A stretch of 37,068 nt of DNA from an uncultured Clostridia bacterium (lineage in GTDB: Bacteria > Bacillota > Clostridia > Christensenellales > Borkfalkiaceae). The stretch is from positions 1 to 37,068 of the forward strand of contig CANRND010000022.1 in the NCBI GenBank assembly GCA_947631905.1, given 5' to 3'. A model generated the notes under the pieces. It was not told the origin of the DNA. It saw nothing but the letters and a program-made list of their open reading frames with translations, and searched no databases. Both the position numbers and the translations under genes were made by a program. Position 1 is the stretch's first letter; every line of letters starts with the position of its first letter. Of the stretch, positions 25,404 through 35,832 are shown in pieces.

Positions 25404-26051
25404 ATGAAAATCAAAATTGCGCCGAGTATTCTGGCAAGCGATTTTTCAAAAGTCGGGGAAGAGGTGGGGCGGCTCGAAAAAAGCGGCGCGGACCTCATTC
25501 ATTGCGACGTGATGGACGGGAATTTTGTTCCACCCATTACCTTCGGCGCGCAGATGGTGAAAGCTCTCCGCCCGCACACGAAGCTCCCGCTCGATTGCCA
25601 CCTCATGGTGCTTCATCCCGAAACGCACATCGAAGATTTTGCAAAGGCGGGCGTGGACATTATCACCGTGCATGCGGAAGCGTGCAACATTGCCGAACTT
25701 TTTAAGCAAATCGAGGGCTACGGAATAAAAAAGAGCGCGGTCGTCAATCCCGAAACGGACGTGGAAAAGCTCTTCCCCGCCGCGGAGACCGCCGATATGC
25801 TCCTTTTGATGAGCGTACACCCCGGCTGGGGCGGGCAGAAGTTCATTCCCGAGACTTTGCAAAAAATCGAAAAACTTCGCAACTACTGCGTGAAGATCGG
25901 GCGTCCCGACCTCGACATCGAGGTGGACGGCGGCGTCACCGAGACGAACGTGAAAGACGTGATCGCGGCGGGCGCGAACGTGATCGTCGCGGGCAGTACG
26001 GTGTTTCAAGCCCCCGATATGGCGGCGATGATAAAGAGGTTGCGCGGATGA
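25404..26051 (+). CDS. rpe: Ribulose-phosphate 3-epimerase
   Basis: It interconverts ribulose 5-phosphate and xylulose 5-phosphate in the pentose phosphate pathway. The TIM-barrel signatures are SILASDFSKVGEEV, HCDVMDGNFVPPITFG (metal and catalytic Asp), DCHLMV, MSVHPGWGGQKFIPE, DIEVDGGV (second catalytic Asp) and ANVIVAGSTVF. The 215-residue length is standard. AAGGAGAACGT precedes the ATG. Its stop codon overlaps thiN by 4 nt, matching the B. subtilis order rpe-thiN. Confidence 0.97.
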   Translation: MKIKIAPSILASDFSKVGEEVGRLEKSGADLIHCDVMDGNFVPPITFGAQMVKALRPHTKLPLDCHLMVLHPETHIEDFAKAGVDIITVHAEACNIAELFKQIEGYGIKKSAVVNPETDVEKLFPAAETADMLLLMSVHPGWGGQKFIPETLQKIEKLRNYCVKIGRPDLDIEVDGGVTETNVKDVIAAGANVIVAGSTVFQAPDMAAMIKRLRG

Positions 26052-26686
26052 GCGGCGAAAGGCCCGCGCAGAGCAAAACGGCGGTCATTCTCCTCAACGG
26101 CGAGCCGCACCGCGGGGGAATTTCCACGGAAAACGCCTACGTCATCTGTTGCGACGGGGCGTATTCCTGGGCGAAAGGAAAGGTGCGTATCGACGAGAAT
26201 TTGGGAGATTTCGACTCCCTTTCGGAGCCGCCCGTTCCCGCGCCCCGCATGAAATTTCCCTCCGAGAAAAACGAGACGGACGGCGAACTTGCCGTGGAAA
26301 GAGCTATCGAACTCGGCGCGACCCATATCCTCTTTTATGGGGGAGGCGGGAAGCGGGAGGACCATTTCCTCGGCAATCTTCATCTTCTTTATAAGGCATT
26401 GCGGGCGGGCGTTTTTGCGGAGCTTGTCACCAACGGCGCGAAGATCGTCTCCGTCGGAAAGGGGGAGCATTGTTTCGGATGCGAAAGCGGGACGACAATT
26501 TCCCTGTTACCTTTTGGCGGTGGCGCGCATATTATGGAGAGTAGCGGACTCAAATATCCCTTAAACGGTCTGCGGCTCAGCTACGGCACTACGCGCGGGA
26601 TCTCCAACATCGTGACGGGGAACGCGTTTTCCTTTACCGTGGACGAGGGATATGTCCTCTGCGTGATAAACAGGGAGGGAACATGA
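26048..26686 (+). CDS. thiN: Thiamine pyrophosphokinase
   Basis: It makes thiamine pyrophosphate from thiamine and ATP. The motifs are CCDGAYSWA, NLGDFDSL, KNETDGELAVERAIELGA (Mg2+/ATP site) and GGGGKREDHFLGNL, and the C-terminal beta domain ends FSFTVDEGYVLCVINREG. The length of 212 residues is normal. It starts within the rpe stop (ATGA) and ends within the start codon of the spoVM microgene (ATGA), giving a tight translational chain rpe-thiN-spoVM. Confidence 0.93.
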   Translation: MSGERPAQSKTAVILLNGEPHRGGISTENAYVICCDGAYSWAKGKVRIDENLGDFDSLSEPPVPAPRMKFPSEKNETDGELAVERAIELGATHILFYGGGGKREDHFLGNLHLLYKALRAGVFAELVTNGAKIVSVGKGEHCFGCESGTTISLLPFGGGAHIMESSGLKYPLNGLRLSYGTTRGISNIVTGNAFSFTVDEGYVLCVINREGT

Positions 26687-26748
26687 TCGTTTGTATCAAG
26701 CTACCGCGCATTGTCGGTTGCATCGTGCGGCTGTTCTACAAGGGATGA
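26683..26748 (+). CDS. spoVM: Stage V sporulation protein SpoVM (21-residue membrane-curvature peptide)
   Basis: The reading frame gives 21 residues: M-IVC-IKLPRIVG-C-IVR-LFYKG. It aligns with B. subtilis SpoVM as I recall it, matching IKLP-[KR]-x-[LV]-G-x-IVR, including the proline and glycine of the amphipathic helix that lies in the convex forespore membrane and recruits SpoIVA to build the coat. It lies immediately after thiN, exactly where spoVM lies in B. subtilis. GGGAGG lies 4-5 nt before the ATG. The start overlaps the thiN stop and the stop overlaps the next gene's ATG. It is short enough to be missed by automatic gene callers. Confidence 0.9.
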   Translation: MIVCIKLPRIVGCIVRLFYKG

Positions 26749-27632
26749 AATATATCGATCTGCATTGCGACGCCCTCACAAACGAGGGCGTTTTGCAAGT
26801 CACAAGCGAAAATTTGCGGCGGGGCGGCTGTCTGTTACAGTGCTTCGCCGCTTTTGTCGATGTGAGAAAAATCCCCCGCGCGGGGCGGTTTGCGCGGGCG
26901 GTTTCCCTCTGCGAAAATTTCGCCGCGATGTGCAAAAGAGAGAGCTATCGCGTTGTGCGGAAGTTTTCGGAGATCGAAGAGGGGAGCCTCAACGCCATGC
27001 TCACGGTGGAGGAGGGGGGAACCATAGAGGGGAGCCTTGAAAAGCTGGAAAAGCTCTTTTCTCTCGGGGTGCGCATGATGACGCTCACGTGGAATTTCAA
27101 AAACGAGATCGGCGCGCCGAACGGGGAAGAGGGCGGGCTGACCCCGTTCGGGCGGGAATGCGTGGAGCGCATGAAAGAGCTTGGCATGCTTGCAGACGTT
27201 TCGCACGGGAGCGACCGCCTCGTAAACGACGTGGCGGAGATCATGCAAAACACGCCCTTTGTTGCGAGCCACTCGAACGCGCGCGAAGTGTTTTTTCACC
27301 CGCGCAACCTCGGGGACGGGGAAATACGGCGCATTGCGGACAGCGGCGGGGTGATCGGCCTGAATTTTTTCGACGGGTTCCTCTCGGCGGATAAAAGCGC
27401 GGCGGGGCAGAAAGCGGCGCTCATCGCGCATGCCGAACATCTCATAAAGGTCGGCGGGGAAAACGTTTTGGCGCTCGGAAGCGATTTCGACGGCATCCCG
27501 CAAAACCCCTGTTTGAAAAACCCCGCATTTATGCCGCGGTTTATAGAGGCGTTGCAAAAAAAATTCGGCGCGCGCACCGCCGAAAAAATTTGCCGCACAA
27601 ACGCCCTGCGCGTGATGAGCGCCTTGGAATAA
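26745..27632 (+). CDS. Membrane dipeptidase-family protein (peptidase M19)
   Basis: This 295-residue TIM-barrel metallopeptidase of the renal dipeptidase family cleaves dipeptides, including those with a D-residue at the C-terminus. Zn ligands are in DLHCDAL (His/Asp) near the start, the bridging glutamate is in TVEEGG, His is in DVSHGSDR and SHSNAR, and Asp is in LGSDFDG. No signal peptide is present, so it is probably cytoplasmic. I choose ATG 26745, which forms ATGA with the spoVM stop. An upstream TTG at 26691 in this frame would overlap spoVM and has no support. Translational coupling to spoVM is unusual. It could supply recycled dipeptide amino acids during sporulation or wall turnover (speculation). 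Confidence 0.9.
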   Translation: MKYIDLHCDALTNEGVLQVTSENLRRGGCLLQCFAAFVDVRKIPRAGRFARAVSLCENFAAMCKRESYRVVRKFSEIEEGSLNAMLTVEEGGTIEGSLEKLEKLFSLGVRMMTLTWNFKNEIGAPNGEEGGLTPFGRECVERMKELGMLADVSHGSDRLVNDVAEIMQNTPFVASHSNAREVFFHPRNLGDGEIRRIADSGGVIGLNFFDGFLSADKSAAGQKAALIAHAEHLIKVGGENVLALGSDFDGIPQNPCLKNPAFMPRFIEALQKKFGARTAEKICRTNALRVMSALE

Positions 27633-27837: not shown

Positions 27838-28012
27838 AAGGAGAAATACAAATGAACAAATGTCCCAAATGCGGCACAAAATTGATTGGCAGTGCAAAAT
27901 TTTGTCCCATGTGCGTAAAAAAATGGAAAGAAATAAAGCCTGTCACGATCCCGACGAAAGAAATTCAAGAAAAAGGAGAAATACAAATGAACAAATGTCC
28001 CAAATGCGGCAC
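27838..28012 (+). repeat. Direct repeat of ribosome-binding site plus start region
   Basis: A 40-nt sequence containing AAGGAGAAATACAA, the ATG and the first nine codons occurs identically at 27838-27877 and 27973-28012, 135 bp apart and in the same frame. It arose by tandem duplication and creates two complete translation starts for the zinc-ribbon/LRR protein. Confidence 0.9.
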
Positions 28013-29462
28013 GGAGTTCGAGGGCAAGTTCTGCCCCGAATGCGGAAGTTCGCCCACGGGCGAACGCCTCTGCCCGAATTGCAAAGCTCTTGTCCCGAGC
28101 GACGCCAAATTCTGCAAAGAATGCGGTTTTACGCTCACCCCGCAGGTACAGCCGCCCGTAAAAAAACGGCGGAACAACGCGGCGGCTGTCTGGATCAAAG
28201 CGCATAAAAAGCTCATCGGGTGGGGCGCGGCGGTTTTGGCGCTCGTCCTTATCCTGTCCATCGTCATTCCCGTTTCCGTCATCAACCGCCATAACGGCAC
28301 CTACTATCTGTATTCAAACGAAGAATATAATTACGAAAAGTATTTCATTTTTAAGGGCAACACCTACACGGACGAAACGGGCTATTCGTGCGACGTAAAG
28401 TTCCACGGCGAGAATGTGGAACTGTACGCCGAACTGTTCGGCATGAAAGATGTATTTATGAGCGGCACGATCAACGGCGACGTATTAAAGCTCGAAGATC
28501 CCTCCGGGAAAAAGATGGTATACGCTAAGAAAGGGCATAAACATAAACTGAAAGAGGAGGTAATCAAAGAAGCGACCTGCACCGAAACAGGCTTGCGGGA
28601 AAAGTATTGTACCGTCTGCGGGCAGGATTTTTCCGAAATAATTGAAAAGATACCGCACACAGTGTTGTGGGATTTCGATAAAACAAGGCATTGGCAGATA
28701 TGTTCCGTTTGCGGGCAAAAAATTACATCCGAAGAAACCGCACATCAATATTCGACGGAAAAGCAGTGCGATATTTGCGGGTACGAATACGGCTCTACCA
28801 TAGGGCTTACTTACTCCGTCGGCAAGGAGAGTTGCACCGTAACAGGGCTTGGCATTGCGACCGACACGGAAATTGTGATTCCAAACCAATACAACGGCAA
28901 GCCTGTGATTTCGATTGGCTCTAAAGCGTTCATGAATTTTAGCGGGTTGATTTCGGTCATCATTCCAAACAGCGTGACCGAGATCGGAGTGGACGCGTTC
29001 TGGGGTTGTACTAAGTTGACTTCGGTTTCCATTCCTAATAGCGTGAACGAGATCGGACAGAGGGCGTTCGAGGGTTGCAGCGGGTTGACAAAAATAAAAG
29101 TAGATGAAAATAATGAAACCTATCATTCGCAGGGGAATTGCCTGATCGAAACGAAGAGCAAGACTTTGATTTTAGGTTGTAATACGAGCAAAATCCCCGA
29201 TGACGGGAGCGTGACCGCGATAGGGAAGAGAGCATTCTATAAGTGTAGTGGGTTGACTTCGGTCACCATTCCCGACAGCGTGACCTCGATTGGAAATTAC
29301 GCGTTCGATGGTTGCGACGGGTTGAAAGAAGTGTATTTCAAAAAACCGAACGGGTGGAAAACGGAGAGTGGAAGGTCTCTTTCGGGGCTTGATAACCCCG
29401 CAACAGCCGCACGGTATTTGACGGATACTTATTGCGGATATATTTGGAAACGCGAGGGGTGA
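27852..29462 (+). CDS. Zinc-ribbon, transmembrane, BspA-type leucine-rich-repeat protein
   Basis: The 536-residue product has three CxxC zinc ribbons at residues 4-21, 49-64 and 74-91. A single transmembrane helix spans about 121-143 after a basic [11 protein letters not shown] segment. Extracellular cysteine-pair repeats follow ([36 protein letters not shown]), then several BspA/LRR_5 repeats such as ITSIGSKAF-like [16 protein letters not shown] and [16 protein letters not shown]. This suggests a cytoplasmic zinc domain and an outside surface-binding domain. A second in-frame start at 27987 with its own identical ribosome-binding site would give 491 residues and lacks the first zinc ribbon. 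The ligand and role are unknown. Confidence 0.85.
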
Positions 29463-31686: not shown

Positions 31687-32037
31687 ATGTCGGTCAGCAC
31701 AAGCAACGCTTACGGAAAAATTTCGATCTCCGAACTCGCTATCGCTAAGGTAGCGTCTCAGGCCGCGATGGAGAGCTATGGCATCGTGGATACCGTTGCG
31801 CGCCGTTTTACCGACACCCTTGCCGAACTGCTCAAAAAAGACGCGGGCGGAAAAGGCGTAAAAGTGACGACGCAGGGAAACCGTATCTTTATCGACGTAT
31901 ACGTTCTCATCAAATACGGCGTCTCGATCGAAGCGGTTGCGGAATCGTTAAAAGAAGCAATCAAATATAAAGTTGAAAATTTCACGGGGATGATCGTAGA
32001 CACCGTGAACGTCAACGTCATGGGCTTGAAACTTTGA
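31687..32037 (+). CDS. Asp23/Gls24 family envelope stress-response protein (YloU-like)
   Basis: This 116-residue alpha/beta protein shows the Asp23 pattern: ISISELAIAKVASQAAMESYGIVDT at the N-terminus, FIDVYVLIKYGVSIEAVAESLKEAI in the core and VDTVNVNVMGLKL at the end. Members are cytoplasmic, often membrane-associated, and linked to cell-envelope homeostasis. It lies directly upstream of fakA, the conserved yloU-yloV pair. A nested terminator-like hairpin overlaps its last codons, so the downstream gene may be partly uncoupled. Confidence 0.9.
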   Translation: MSVSTSNAYGKISISELAIAKVASQAAMESYGIVDTVARRFTDTLAELLKKDAGGKGVKVTTQGNRIFIDVYVLIKYGVSIEAVAESLKEAIKYKVENFTGMIVDTVNVNVMGLKL

Positions 32038-32120: not shown

Positions 32121-33773
32121 ATGCAGAAAACCATCAACTGCGCGACATTCCGTAAAATGGTGTTGGTCGGCGCAAAAATGCTGGATAATAACCGGGCTAA
32201 GGTAGACGCGCTCAATGTGTTCCCCGTTCCAGACGGCGACACAGGCACCAATATGTCTCTTACCATGCAGTCCGCCGTAAAAGAGCTTTCCAATACCACT
32301 TCCAACAACTTTATGGAAGTCTGCGACTGCGTTTCCAAAGGCGCGCTCAAAGGCGCGCGCGGCAACTCCGGCGTGATCCTTTCGCAAATTTTCCGCGGCA
32401 TTTGTTCCGTACTCCGCGTAGGCAAACCCGAAGTGGATACCCGTGCTTTTGCAAAGGCGCTCGAAGCGGGGACGAAAGTCGCCTATAACGCCGTTGCAAT
32501 CCCGAAAGAAGGCACCATTCTCACGGTCATGCGGCTCATGAGCGAGTTCGCCGCAAAGAACGCGGGCAAGTACCGCGAATTTGAAAATTTCATTCCCGCC
32601 ATCATCGAAGAGGGGGACAGGGCGCTCGCAAAGACTCCCGAACTTCTCCCCGTTTTGAAGAAAGCGGGCGTTGTAGACTCGGGCGGTGTGGGACTTATGA
32701 CCATCATGCGCGGCTTCCAGGCGGCGGTCATGGGGGACGAGATCGTCTCCGAAGTGCAGACGGAAGCGGCGAACGCGGCGCAGAGCCTCGACGCGGACTT
32801 CGGCGACAACTCCGACATCATCAACATGGACCTCGGCGAGATCCAGTTTGCCTATTGCACCGAGTTCTTCGTCATCAACTTAAAAAAGAGTACCACCCTT
32901 GCCGACATCGATAAACTGCGAGAAAATCTCATGAACATCGGGGATTCCGTCATCTGCATCGGCGACCTCGAAATGATCAAGGTGCATGTGCATACCAACT
33001 GCCCCGGCGTGGCGCTCACGTATGCGCTCGAACTCGGCGAGCTGGACCGCCCCAAGATCGAAAACATGCTCGAACAGAACCGCGCGCTCAAAGCCAAGAT
33101 TGCCGCGGAGAAAAAAGAGCAGGGGATGCTCGCCATCTGCACGGGAGACGGCATTTCGGATATTTTCAAAGACCTGTTCGTGGACCGCGTGATCGAGGGC
33201 GGGCAGACGATGAACCCCTCCGCTTCGGACATTGCAACAGCGGTGCAAAAGATCAACGCGGACAACGTGTTCGTGTTCCCCAACAATAAAAACATCATTC
33301 TTGCGGCGGAGCAGGCGAAAGCGCTTGTGGATAACCGCACCATTCACGTGATCCCCACCCGCAACGTCCCGCAGGGCTTTGCCGCCGCGCTCTCGTTCTC
33401 GCCCGAGGCGAGCGTGGAGGAGAACAAGACGAACATGATCCACGCGCTCGACAACGTGAAAGCGGGCAGCGTCACTCATGCCGTCCGCACCACGAGCGTG
33501 AACGGGTTCAACATCAAGGAAGGGGACATCATCGGGCTGGACGACAAAAAGATCCTCGCCAAGAGCGACAATGTGGACGACGCCGTGTTGAAGCTCCTCG
33601 ATAAACTCAAAGAGGACCAGCACGAGGTGATCACCCTCTACTACGGCGACGAGATCAAGGAAGAGGACGCCGCGGCGCTTGCCGGAAAGGTGGGGGAGGC
33701 TTTCCCCGACTGCGACGTGGATTACCACAGCGGCGGCCAGCCCGTCTATTACTATCTGGTATCGTTAGAGTAA
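32121..33773 (+). CDS. fakA: Fatty acid kinase/DAK2 domain protein (YloV, FakA family)
   Basis: FakA-type proteins phosphorylate FakB-bound fatty acids for phospholipid synthesis. The N-terminal DhaL (DAK2) domain has NVFPVPDGDTGTNMS (residues 33-47, nucleotide and Mg2+ site) and GARGNSGVILSQIFRG. The middle domain and a C-terminal DegV-like domain end in the characteristic SGGQPVYYYLVSLE. The length of 550 residues is normal. The fatty-acid-binding partner FakB is not in the window. The gene begins with AAGGAG 10 nt before the ATG and is followed by a hairpin before recG. Confidence 0.93.
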   Translation: MQKTINCATFRKMVLVGAKMLDNNRAKVDALNVFPVPDGDTGTNMSLTMQSAVKELSNTTSNNFMEVCDCVSKGALKGARGNSGVILSQIFRGICSVLRVGKPEVDTRAFAKALEAGTKVAYNAVAIPKEGTILTVMRLMSEFAAKNAGKYREFENFIPAIIEEGDRALAKTPELLPVLKKAGVVDSGGVGLMTIMRGFQAAVMGDEIVSEVQTEAANAAQSLDADFGDNSDIINMDLGEIQFAYCTEFFVINLKKSTTLADIDKLRENLMNIGDSVICIGDLEMIKVHVHTNCPGVALTYALELGELDRPKIENMLEQNRALKAKIAAEKKEQGMLAICTGDGISDIFKDLFVDRVIEGGQTMNPSASDIATAVQKINADNVFVFPNNKNIILAAEQAKALVDNRTIHVIPTRNVPQGFAAALSFSPEASVEENKTNMIHALDNVKAGSVTHAVRTTSVNGFNIKEGDIIGLDDKKILAKSDNVDDAVLKLLDKLKEDQHEVITLYYGDEIKEEDAAALAGKVGEAFPDCDVDYHSGGQPVYYYLVSLE

Positions 33774-33776
33774 ACG

Positions 33777-33798
33777 TAAGCGGGTGAAAGCCCGCTTA
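33777..33798 (+). terminator. Hairpin between fakA and recG (weak terminator)
   Basis: TAAGCGGG (33777-33784) pairs with CCCGCTTA (33791-33798) over a 6-nt loop, followed by TTGCTTATT, a poor U-tract. A GTG in the recG frame at 33784 falls inside this stem, which argues against that start. Confidence 0.6.
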
Positions 33799-33828
33799 TT
33801 GCTTATTCGGGGCAAACGGCATTATAAT

Positions 33829-35832
33829 ATGGAGCTTACTTCGGTCCGCGGGATCTCGGACAAGCGCGCCAAAGATCTCGCAAAACTCAATATCACCGAT
33901 ACGGCGGAACTTGTCCGCTACTTTCCGCGCGCCTATCTCGATATGACGAACCGCGTCTCCGTGCGCGAAGTCTACCACAACGATATGGCGCTTCTTGCCT
34001 GCACCCTCGTCTCGGTGGAACCTGTCCGCTATACGGGCAGACGGAAAGTGGTGCGCGCCCTCCTCGCGCAGGGGAGGGATAACTTCACCGCCGTGTGGTT
34101 CAATATGCCCTACATCGCCCAAAAACTCAAACCGGGCGAGTATCTCTTTTACGGTCGGGTGCAGAACTATTACGACCGCATCTCCCTCGTCAATCCCTCT
34201 TTCGAACCCCTCGAAAAGAACAACCGCCTCAAAGGGCTTGTGCCTGTATATCCCCTCAAAGGGTCGCTCACCCAGCGCGTTTTGCGGGACTGTATCGCAA
34301 ACGCCCTCAAAACGGAGCCGATCAAAACGGTCATTCCCGAAGAACTCATCCGCAAATACAAGCTGTCACCTCTTCGGCAGGCGTATCTCGACGTGCATCT
34401 GCCCGAATCGCAGACGCGGCTGAAAAACGCCTCCGAGCGCATCGCCCTCGAAGAGTATTTTACCCTCATTTCGGCGTTCAAACTCATCAAGGGGGACAAA
34501 AACGAGGCGCGGCTCAACCGCTATACCGTCACCGAGCGGGAGGTTGCCGCATTTGAAAAACGCTTCCCGTTCACGTTTACGGCGGGGCAACAGGGCGCGG
34601 TGCGGGCGATCTACGACAATTTGACCTCGCCCGTCCGCATGAACCGCCTCTTGCAGGGAGACGTGGGAAGCGGCAAGACCGCCGTCGCGCTCACGGGCAT
34701 CTTTATGGCGGTGAAGAGCGGCTTCCAGGCCGTCTACCTCTCCCCGACCGAAGTGCTTGCGGCGCAAAATTATCAGGTATTGTGCAAAATATTCCCCGAT
34801 TACCGCGTGGGATACCTTGCGGGCGGTTCCACCGCCAAAGAAAAGCGGGAGATCAAAGCAGCGCTCGAAGCGGGGGAGATCGACATTCTCTGCGGCACGC
34901 ATGCCGTTTTGCAGGGGGACGTCAGGTTTCAAAACCTCGCCTTTTGCGTCTGCGACGAACAGCACCGTTTCGGCGTCTCCCAGCGCAACACGCTGAGCGA
35001 AAAGGGGAACGGCGCAGATGTGCTTGTCATGTCCGCAACGCCCATCCCGAGAACGCTCTCGCTCATCTTCTACGGCGATCTCGACGTCACCACCATTCCC
35101 GATAAACCCAAAGAGCGGCAGGAGATCTCGACCTCGGTCATTCCCTCTTACAAATATGAGGACATGCTCGCCTATATCCGCCGCGAGACGAAAGCGGGCA
35201 GGCAGGCGTATTTCGTCTGCCCCAAGATCGACGATGACGAGGGGCAGGTGACTTCCGTCACCGAGCTTTACGAGGAATTAAAGGGAAAACTCTTCGACGT
35301 GCGCTTTGCCCTACTCCACGGCAAAATGAAAGAGCGGGAAAAGACGGAGATCATGACGGCGTTCAAGAACGGGGAGTACGATTGCCTCGTTTCGACGACC
35401 GTCATCGAGGTGGGCGTAGACGTGCCGAACGCCACCATCATGGTGGTGTATAACGCCGAACGGTTCGGGCTTTCGCAACTCCACCAGCTCCGCGGCAGAG
35501 TGGGGCGGGGGAGCGAAAAGAGCTATTGCTTCCTGCTCGTCGGGAGCGAGAGCGAGACCGCAATGGAGCGGCTGAATATTTTGAAAACGACGACGGACGG
35601 GTTCGAACTTGCCGAAAAGGATCTGGAACTGCGCGGCAGCGGGGACTTTTTCGGCACCCGCCAGAGCGGAAAATTTTTGAGCGATATTAAAAACTTGCGC
35701 TATACCACCAGCGCGATCTTTGCGGCGAAAAAGCTTTCGGACGAGGCGTTTGAAAAGCGGCTCAATTTCGAGGAGATCAAAGAGGCCGCCATGAAAAAGT
35801 ACGACAGCCTGAAAGACGTGGTGTTGAATTGA
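33829..35832 (+). CDS. recG: ATP-dependent DNA helicase RecG
   Basis: RecG remodels stalled forks and Holliday junctions. The N-terminal wedge/OB domain is at about 1-160 (MELTSVRGISDKRAKDLAKL...). Walker A is GDVGSGKTAVA, the DEQH-type Walker B is CDEQHRFGV, and SATPIPRTLSL (motif III) and STTVIEVGVDVPNATIMVV (motif V) lead to QLHQLRGRVGRG (motif VI). A typical C-terminal hook with GSGDFFGTRQSGK follows. I use ATG 33829 (667 residues), because its sequence matches the family's start. The region before it has only a weak ribosome-binding site, and a TATAAT directly abuts the ATG. Confidence 0.95.
   Translation: MELTSVRGISDKRAKDLAKLNITDTAELVRYFPRAYLDMTNRVSVREVYHNDMALLACTLVSVEPVRYTGRRKVVRALLAQGRDNFTAVWFNMPYIAQKLKPGEYLFYGRVQNYYDRISLVNPSFEPLEKNNRLKGLVPVYPLKGSLTQRVLRDCIANALKTEPIKTVIPEELIRKYKLSPLRQAYLDVHLPESQTRLKNASERIALEEYFTLISAFKLIKGDKNEARLNRYTVTEREVAAFEKRFPFTFTAGQQGAVRAIYDNLTSPVRMNRLLQGDVGSGKTAVALTGIFMAVKSGFQAVYLSPTEVLAAQNYQVLCKIFPDYRVGYLAGGSTAKEKREIKAALEAGEIDILCGTHAVLQGDVRFQNLAFCVCDEQHRFGVSQRNTLSEKGNGADVLVMSATPIPRTLSLIFYGDLDVTTIPDKPKERQEISTSVIPSYKYEDMLAYIRRETKAGRQAYFVCPKIDDDEGQVTSVTELYEELKGKLFDVRFALLHGKMKEREKTEIMTAFKNGEYDCLVSTTVIEVGVDVPNATIMVVYNAERFGLSQLHQLRGRVGRGSEKSYCFLLVGSESETAMERLNILKTTTDGFELAEKDLELRGSGDFFGTRQSGKFLSDIKNLRYTTSAIFAAKKLSDEAFEKRLNFEEIKEAAMKKYDSLKDVVLN

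Follow-up and report, generated by a model that had tools for sequence, protein, structure and literature searches.

The stretch of DNA analysed here (the window, 37,068 nucleotides from an uncultured gut bacterium) holds, between thiN and a dipeptidase gene, a frame of 21 codons that is missing from the annotation. We asked whether this frame is spoVM, the gene of a very small peptide by which the spore coat is anchored, as a first-pass annotation had proposed, and what the presence or absence of its product in relatives tells us about SpoIVA. As far as can be judged from sequence, the frame is very probably spoVM and would encode a shortened SpoVM. By itself, a spoVM gene is a modest find; the apparent decay of the SpoIVA tip in most relatives where SpoVM is not found adds weight to it.

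The frame and its neighbours

The frame lies on the plus strand at 26683..26748 and translates into 21 residues, MIVCIKLPRIVGCIVRLFYKG. Its 5' neighbour is thiN, the gene for thiamine diphosphokinase (26048..26686, plus strand; TIGR01378, 144.9 bits), which follows rpe, the gene for ribulose-phosphate 3-epimerase (25404..26051, plus strand; TIGR01163, 251 bits). On the 3' side lies the gene of an M19 membrane dipeptidase (26745..27632, plus strand; PF01244, 233 bits). The four bases ATGA are shared at both junctions: the stop codon of thiN overlaps the ATG of the frame, and the TGA of the frame overlaps the start of the dipeptidase gene. A GGAGG ribosome-binding site (26674..26678, plus strand) is found within thiN, 5-9 bases upstream of the start; in 54 loci of the genus type its four G are invariant and its A is kept in 53. 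The window has 494 start codons that open frames of 18-32 codons, with nested starts taken separately; among them this was the sole match to a loose SpoVM pattern that we wrote ourselves. When the window was replaced by 40 first-order Markov copies, the same pattern was never matched.

It had also been claimed that the frame takes the place which SpoVM has in B. subtilis, and the wider gene order bears this out. On the 5' side the window reads yicC-gmk-priA-def-fmt-rsmB-rlmN, one unnamed frame, and then rpe-thiN-spoVM. On the 3' side, beyond the dipeptidase gene and other genes, there follow rpmB, encoding L28 (31253..31441, minus strand, about 4.5 kb from spoVM; recognised by eye from its motif), an asp23-family gene in the yloU position (31687..32037, plus strand; PF03780, 97 bits), a fakA/DAK2-family gene in the yloV position (32121..33773, plus strand; PF13684, 268 bits) and recG (33784..35832, plus strand; PF17191, 75 bits, plus helicase domains). 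We take this to be the order of B. subtilis as well, and rpmB to be the usual downstream neighbour of spoVM. Together with the dipeptidase gene, a region coding for zinc ribbons and BspA-type leucine-rich repeats (27852-29462) lies between spoVM and rpmB. The closeness of spoVM and rpmB is described as conserved in the parts of PMC5607322 consulted.

In relatives, too, the peptide is found next to genes of this set. We inspected 11 loci, ten of them from genomes without a ThiN match, and recognised the neighbours by eye; in nine the peptide either follows an rpe-like frame (six loci: L151, L156, L160, L163, L165 and L167) or lies 5' of rpmB- or DAK2-like genes (three loci: L159, L162 and L164), and L161 and L166 were assigned neither placement.

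Synonymous conservation within thiN peaks about 140-185 nt 5' of spoVM (z up to 2.5 in 52 loci of the genus type), where a stretch GCATAT[ACT]AT is conserved about 150 nt 5' of the gene. In the window the highest values fall at 26505-26545, around the conserved CATAT. A hidden sigma-E promoter was considered for this stretch. We claim no promoter, because no -35 partner was recognised and because the stretch is also kept in three g5 genomes that have no spoVM there (L005-L007).

Identity and conservation of the peptide

Curated models do not accept the peptide. The NCBIfam model SpoVM_broad scores it at 20.8 bits (E 2.8e-4), under its cut-off of 31 bits, and the Pfam model PF08183 gives no match to the frame, so that a SpoVM of 21 residues escapes both models at their cut-offs. 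Searched across the whole 1.99 Mb genome, SpoVM_broad found the frame as its one match at E<=10 (18 bits, E 0.0095); at the same threshold it also matches six of 14 control genomes, namely B. subtilis and five non-sporulating ones. The third NCBIfam match of the peptide is to the Fst type of small membrane toxin (NF033608, 15.9 bits, E 0.0087, cut-off 26). That the frame encodes such a toxin we consider improbable to the point of being negligible, as this match is weaker than that to SpoVM_broad, and the position of the gene and its coupling to SpoIVA (see below) argue otherwise.

A more sensitive profile, A1, was made from an alignment of 21 peptides of relatives, which were picked by eye and with patterns that demanded the proline and, mostly, the cysteine; it has 24 positions. 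When we allowed C, T, A, V or S at the cysteine site, all five peptides listed still had cysteine. Against the 177,635 distinct sequences of the PDB the single match of A1 at E<=10 was SpoVM of B. subtilis (2mvh, E 0.014), over an alignment that spans IKLPKFLGGIVRAM. Taken with the exact translation and the sole match of SpoVM_broad in the genome, this upholds the proposed identity of the frame.

The residues agree in part with those known to matter in B. subtilis. Pro8 of the window peptide lies at the place of Pro9, which is the sole residue invariant over SpoVM homologues according to the consulted parts of PMC5607322; its invariance among our relatives is no independent test, since the search patterns required it. 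Ile5 is at the place of Ile6, the SpoIVA contact, and is hydrophobic, as are the residues of the relatives at this place (I, F, L or V, an alphabet set by the search pattern). Position 2 is Ile and not Lys, and several other genera have MK; in B. subtilis, changing lysine 2 to alanine (K2A) blocks cortex formation (PMC5607322, parts consulted). The helix past the proline is amphipathic, with a moment of 0.77 against 0.39 for shuffled sequences in 49 KLP peptides and of 0.75 against 0.41 in ten KPP peptides. At 21 residues the peptide is shorter than the approximately 26 expected (relatives have 20-29). The difference of five residues had been noticed before and stands; placing all of it at the C-terminus does not, as one residue is missing before the aligned core and four after it.

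The frame was expected to be conserved in close relatives, and this is what we see. A SpoVM-like peptide with an ATG start occurs in 64 of the 72 loci scanned, and in 59 of these it has the form of the genus, MI[IVF]C... (the 59 include three contigs counted twice, L002/L070, L003/L082 and L004/L093, and one more distant genome, L114). No peptide was found with the search pattern in the other eight loci, one of which, L104, has a peptide with a GTG start. Comparing 45 distinct 21-codon KLP DNA sequences, we obtained a median dN/dS of 0.22 (963 of 990 pairs) and found codon position 2 to be the least variable.

Could the frame nevertheless be a chance or leftover overlapping frame without a product? 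It is very short, shares four bases with each of its neighbours and is missed by the standard models. On the other hand, the low dN/dS, the bias between codon positions and the conserved start and ribosome-binding site argue against this, and the peptide turns up in genomes where different genes flank it, 16 of the 33 genomes with a match being unrepresented in A1. We therefore consider a frame without product highly improbable, and continue to treat the frame as spoVM.

The spread of SpoVM over the family was assessed with A1. SpoVM was found in 33 of the 61 family genomes (E<=6.4e-5, the weakest accepted matches having 24-27 bits); the next match had an E of 0.011, and from there on matches were counted as none. 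The 28 other genomes had no SpoVM match by this profile, and members of the family can therefore do without it. Most of the relatives that have a name are uncultured Clostridia with isolate names starting in 'Lapin', which we read as rabbit; the named ones also include Candidatus Gallimonas and Scatosoma. The M19 gene comes directly after thiN, without an intervening spoVM, in four sampled g5 genomes as well as in L096 and L098-L101 (L101 being Candidatus Gallimonas), and in three g11 genomes we saw by eye no candidate in some 140-240 bases after thiN. One control did not come out as expected: no SpoVM-like frame was found from 0.7 kb 5' to 1.5 kb 3' of a weak Paenibacillus thiN match (L113).

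Positions 7 and 12 of the peptide change together. Among the 59 loci, 48 have Leu-Gly, one has Leu-Ser and ten have Pro-Arg; there is no mixed form, which the pattern permitted, albeit with only L or P at position 7 and G, R, S or K at position 12. In other genera of the family KPP...R is commoner, instead of KLP...G. The swap between Leu7-Gly12 and Pro7-Arg12 is scattered over the SpoIVA tree, with eight changes, five of them forced, and a pair test gave five pairs, all in the same direction (p 0.0625). We looked at SpoIVA as a possible driver and rejected it, as the two forms are not told apart by any column of SpoIVA (the best difference was 0.63, in variable columns). The swap may be a recurrent paired substitution or an exchange of two alleles.

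The SpoIVA tail and the presence of SpoVM

The genetic contact between the two proteins in B. subtilis is that of SpoVM Ile6 with SpoIVA Gly486 (PMC5607322, parts consulted). By homology, the amphipathic peptide of the window would insert, in the mother cell, into the positively curved outer membrane of the forespore, its proline providing a kink for the sensing of curvature. Ile5 would then dock on the C-terminal tip of SpoIVA, and the docked SpoIVA would polymerise to form the coat's basement layer. We wanted to know whether the SpoIVA tip differs between genomes with and without SpoVM.

The SpoIVA tail could be read in 56 of the 61 genomes; G003, G010 and G037, in which no SpoIVA was found, and G004 and G014, in which it is cut at the contig end, were dropped. 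In genomes with SpoVM the tail reads NE[GNS][KRD]GG[VI][IL]CILL. The C-terminal Gly-Gly, in the region of Gly486 of B. subtilis, is intact in 31 of 31 genomes with SpoVM and in five of 25 without (G015, G017, G021, G050 and G054, with a completeness of 57, 79, 87, 91 and 92%). In the remaining 20 of the 25 it is replaced by YR, NN, SN, SS, SA, SG and others. When only genomes of at least 90% completeness are taken, Gly-Gly is intact in 25 of 25 with SpoVM and in two of 19 without. Fisher's test for Gly-Gly against SpoVM gives 6.8e-11, a value that ignores relatedness.

We therefore turned to a SpoIVA tree, made without the last 20 residues. On this tree the presence of SpoVM changes nine times, seven of the changes being forced by well-supported branches. 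In a tree-based likelihood comparison, a model of dependent evolution is better than an independent one (LR 27.5, p 1.5e-5), also when only genomes at least 90% complete are used (LR 29.2, p 7e-6), and its fitted rates have the loss of SpoVM first and the decay of the tail after it. The sign test on independent pairs, which is more conservative, was not significant (seven pairs, p 0.06-0.5); on average, the tail differed in the expected way in 3.7 pairs, in the opposite way in 0 and did not differ in 3.3.

Where in SpoIVA does the difference lie? Over 498 columns, the two Gly and the last Leu show the largest drop, in genomes without SpoVM, of the residue common in those with it. Scored by mutual information, and among the columns listed, the tail (0.62) is equalled by a column 117 residues before the C-terminus (0.63). 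Likelihood scoring, which covered the 38 columns conserved in genomes with SpoVM, put the Gly (28.7), the last Leu (26.0) and the second Gly (19.9) on top, followed by a column 28 residues from the end (19.7), with a median of 6.7. Of the nine top columns, seven belong to the 14 C-terminal residues, and one of the others is a Trp (13.6) located 52 residues from the end. Leaving out genus g10, the likeness to the consensus in the last 12 residues is 0.517 in genomes without SpoVM and 0.917 in those with it, compared with 0.572 and 0.625 outside the tail. In a predicted structure of SpoIVA (mean pLDDT 83.7), the last ten residues come after the final helix. As a side observation, genus g10 (L121, L122, L123) has a SpoIVA P-loop that is degenerate or was not seen, together with an intact tail and a spoVM that has been kept.

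A different reading of the same data would be that the relatives counted as lacking SpoVM carry a diverged SpoVM that fits a diverged SpoIVA tip, i.e. that both proteins diverged together and nothing was lost. The profile, with its 24 positions and its weakest accepted matches at 24-27 bits, is of limited reach, and a copy of SpoVM elsewhere in these genomes is excluded only to that reach, the Gallimonas-like genomes lying outside the search. Against this stands the thiN junction, at which no frame is left in the sampled g5 genomes and in L096 and L098-L101, nor any candidate, by eye, in the three g11 genomes. We regard this common divergence as possible, if somewhat unlikely.

One reading, which we consider slightly more probable than not, is that nature has run an experiment on the basement of the coat in this family: where SpoVM is gone, about the last 14 residues of SpoIVA decay, first of all the final Leu and the Gly-Gly, and a Trp/Thr patch some 50 residues upstream may decay with them. 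The decayed columns would map the surface on which SpoVM docks, and the coat programme is kept without detectable SASPs or GPR. That the presence of SpoVM tracks the state of the SpoIVA tip argues for a genuine contact of the two proteins, maintained by selection in those clostridia that have kept SpoVM. The co-decay names residues to mutate and makes this contact directly testable. We found no report of it in the literature consulted, which included parts of PMC3533761, PMC3416734, PMC11536998, PMC7549369 and PMC7911427, the nearest being PMC5607322, in the parts consulted.

In L098-L101 there is no spoVM at thiN, yet the SpoIVA of these genomes keeps its Gly-Gly; their spoVM is either elsewhere or was recently lost. 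SpoIVA in the genome of L096 ends in ..GKAGLICILI.

Sporulation genes and known systems

The first-pass annotation had named two findings that would speak against spoVM, a frame not conserved in close relatives and a genome without any sporulation genes. Neither holds, because the frame is conserved and the genome has spo0A, spoIVA, spoIIR and sigF- and sigG-like genes. Spo0A (252 bits, NCBI cut-off 200) and SpoIVA (557 bits, cut-off 460) are over their cut-offs. The SigG-like protein scores just below the cut-off of one SigG model (369, cut-off 372) and further below that of the other (348, cut-off 457), the SigF-like protein has 271 bits (SigF cut-off 321), and both are over the NCBI cut-off for the SigBFG subfamily. 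SpoIIR is over the Pfam cut-off and under that of NCBI (139 vs 152). A protein with a SipL domain is present (PF12673, 31.5 bits, cut-off 23.6), with no NCBIfam model match at E<=1e-20. A second SpoIVA of 636 bits lies on another contig of this genome, L118 (C31, 7972-8676); the contig is possibly a contaminant, and this SpoIVA was left out of the analysis. In the parts of PMC11536998 consulted, Borkfalkiaceae-like MAGs with sporulation genes are described; the family of the window may be Borkfalkiaceae. On the question raised in the first-pass annotation, whether a SpoIVA-based coat is still built, the genes of the window's genome speak in favour.

Across the family, SpoIVA and Spo0A_C are each found in 58 of the 61 genomes and SipL in 40 (E<=0.001). 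Every one of the 61 has a match to the SigG model, though none over the strict cut-off of 457 bits. The alpha/beta-SASP model (PF00269) has no match in any of the 61 genomes and that of the GPR protease (PF03418) has matches in two; both models do match B. subtilis. As SASPs are undetected and GPR is nearly so, the spores may not be ordinary, and one has to ask what spore, if any, is inside such a coat.

Potentially, the SpoVM is a true one and there is no ordinary spore at all: SASPs and GPR would have been lost, and the mother-cell programme with SpoIVA would serve some other engulfed or encased form of cell. Their scarcity, despite SpoIVA and Spo0A_C being so widespread, is what speaks for this. 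On the other hand, the SigG-model match is general, below the strict cut-off as it is, SpoIIR is present in the genome of the window, the SpoVM-SpoIVA contact looks selected, and a divergent SASP or GPR could be past the reach of Pfam. We consider such a use of the programme rather unlikely. A programme of this kind is described for Epulopiscium, in which sporulation is turned to live offspring and the late set is reduced while spoIVA is kept (PMC3416734, parts consulted). The family of the window resembles it in retaining spoIVA; it differs in having no detected SASP and almost no GPR, as Epulopiscium keeps SASP and gpr according to the same parts of PMC3416734.

The closest likeness is to SpoVM of B. 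subtilis (2mvh) and of C. difficile. In common with these, the gene of the window lies near rpe/thiN and rpmB, and the peptide has the IKLP[KR]xxGxIVR core, the proline and the amphipathic helix. Unlike them, it has 21 and not 26 residues, lacks Lys2, has Cys at position 4, falls under the curated cut-offs and is encoded in overlap with thiN and the M19 peptidase gene. As in B. subtilis, its partner SpoIVA has a matching Gly-Gly tail. In C. difficile and C. perfringens the place of Gly486 is taken by Asn, and SpoVM of C. difficile still binds SpoIVA and is largely dispensable (PMC5607322, parts consulted). This would fit the co-decay trend and also shows its limits. The genome of the window thus resembles C. 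difficile in that all three members of its SpoIVA-SpoVM-SipL coat basement are represented (SipL by the protein with its domain), and differs from it at the Gly486 place: here the genomes with SpoVM keep the Gly-Gly, and most of those without SpoVM lose it.
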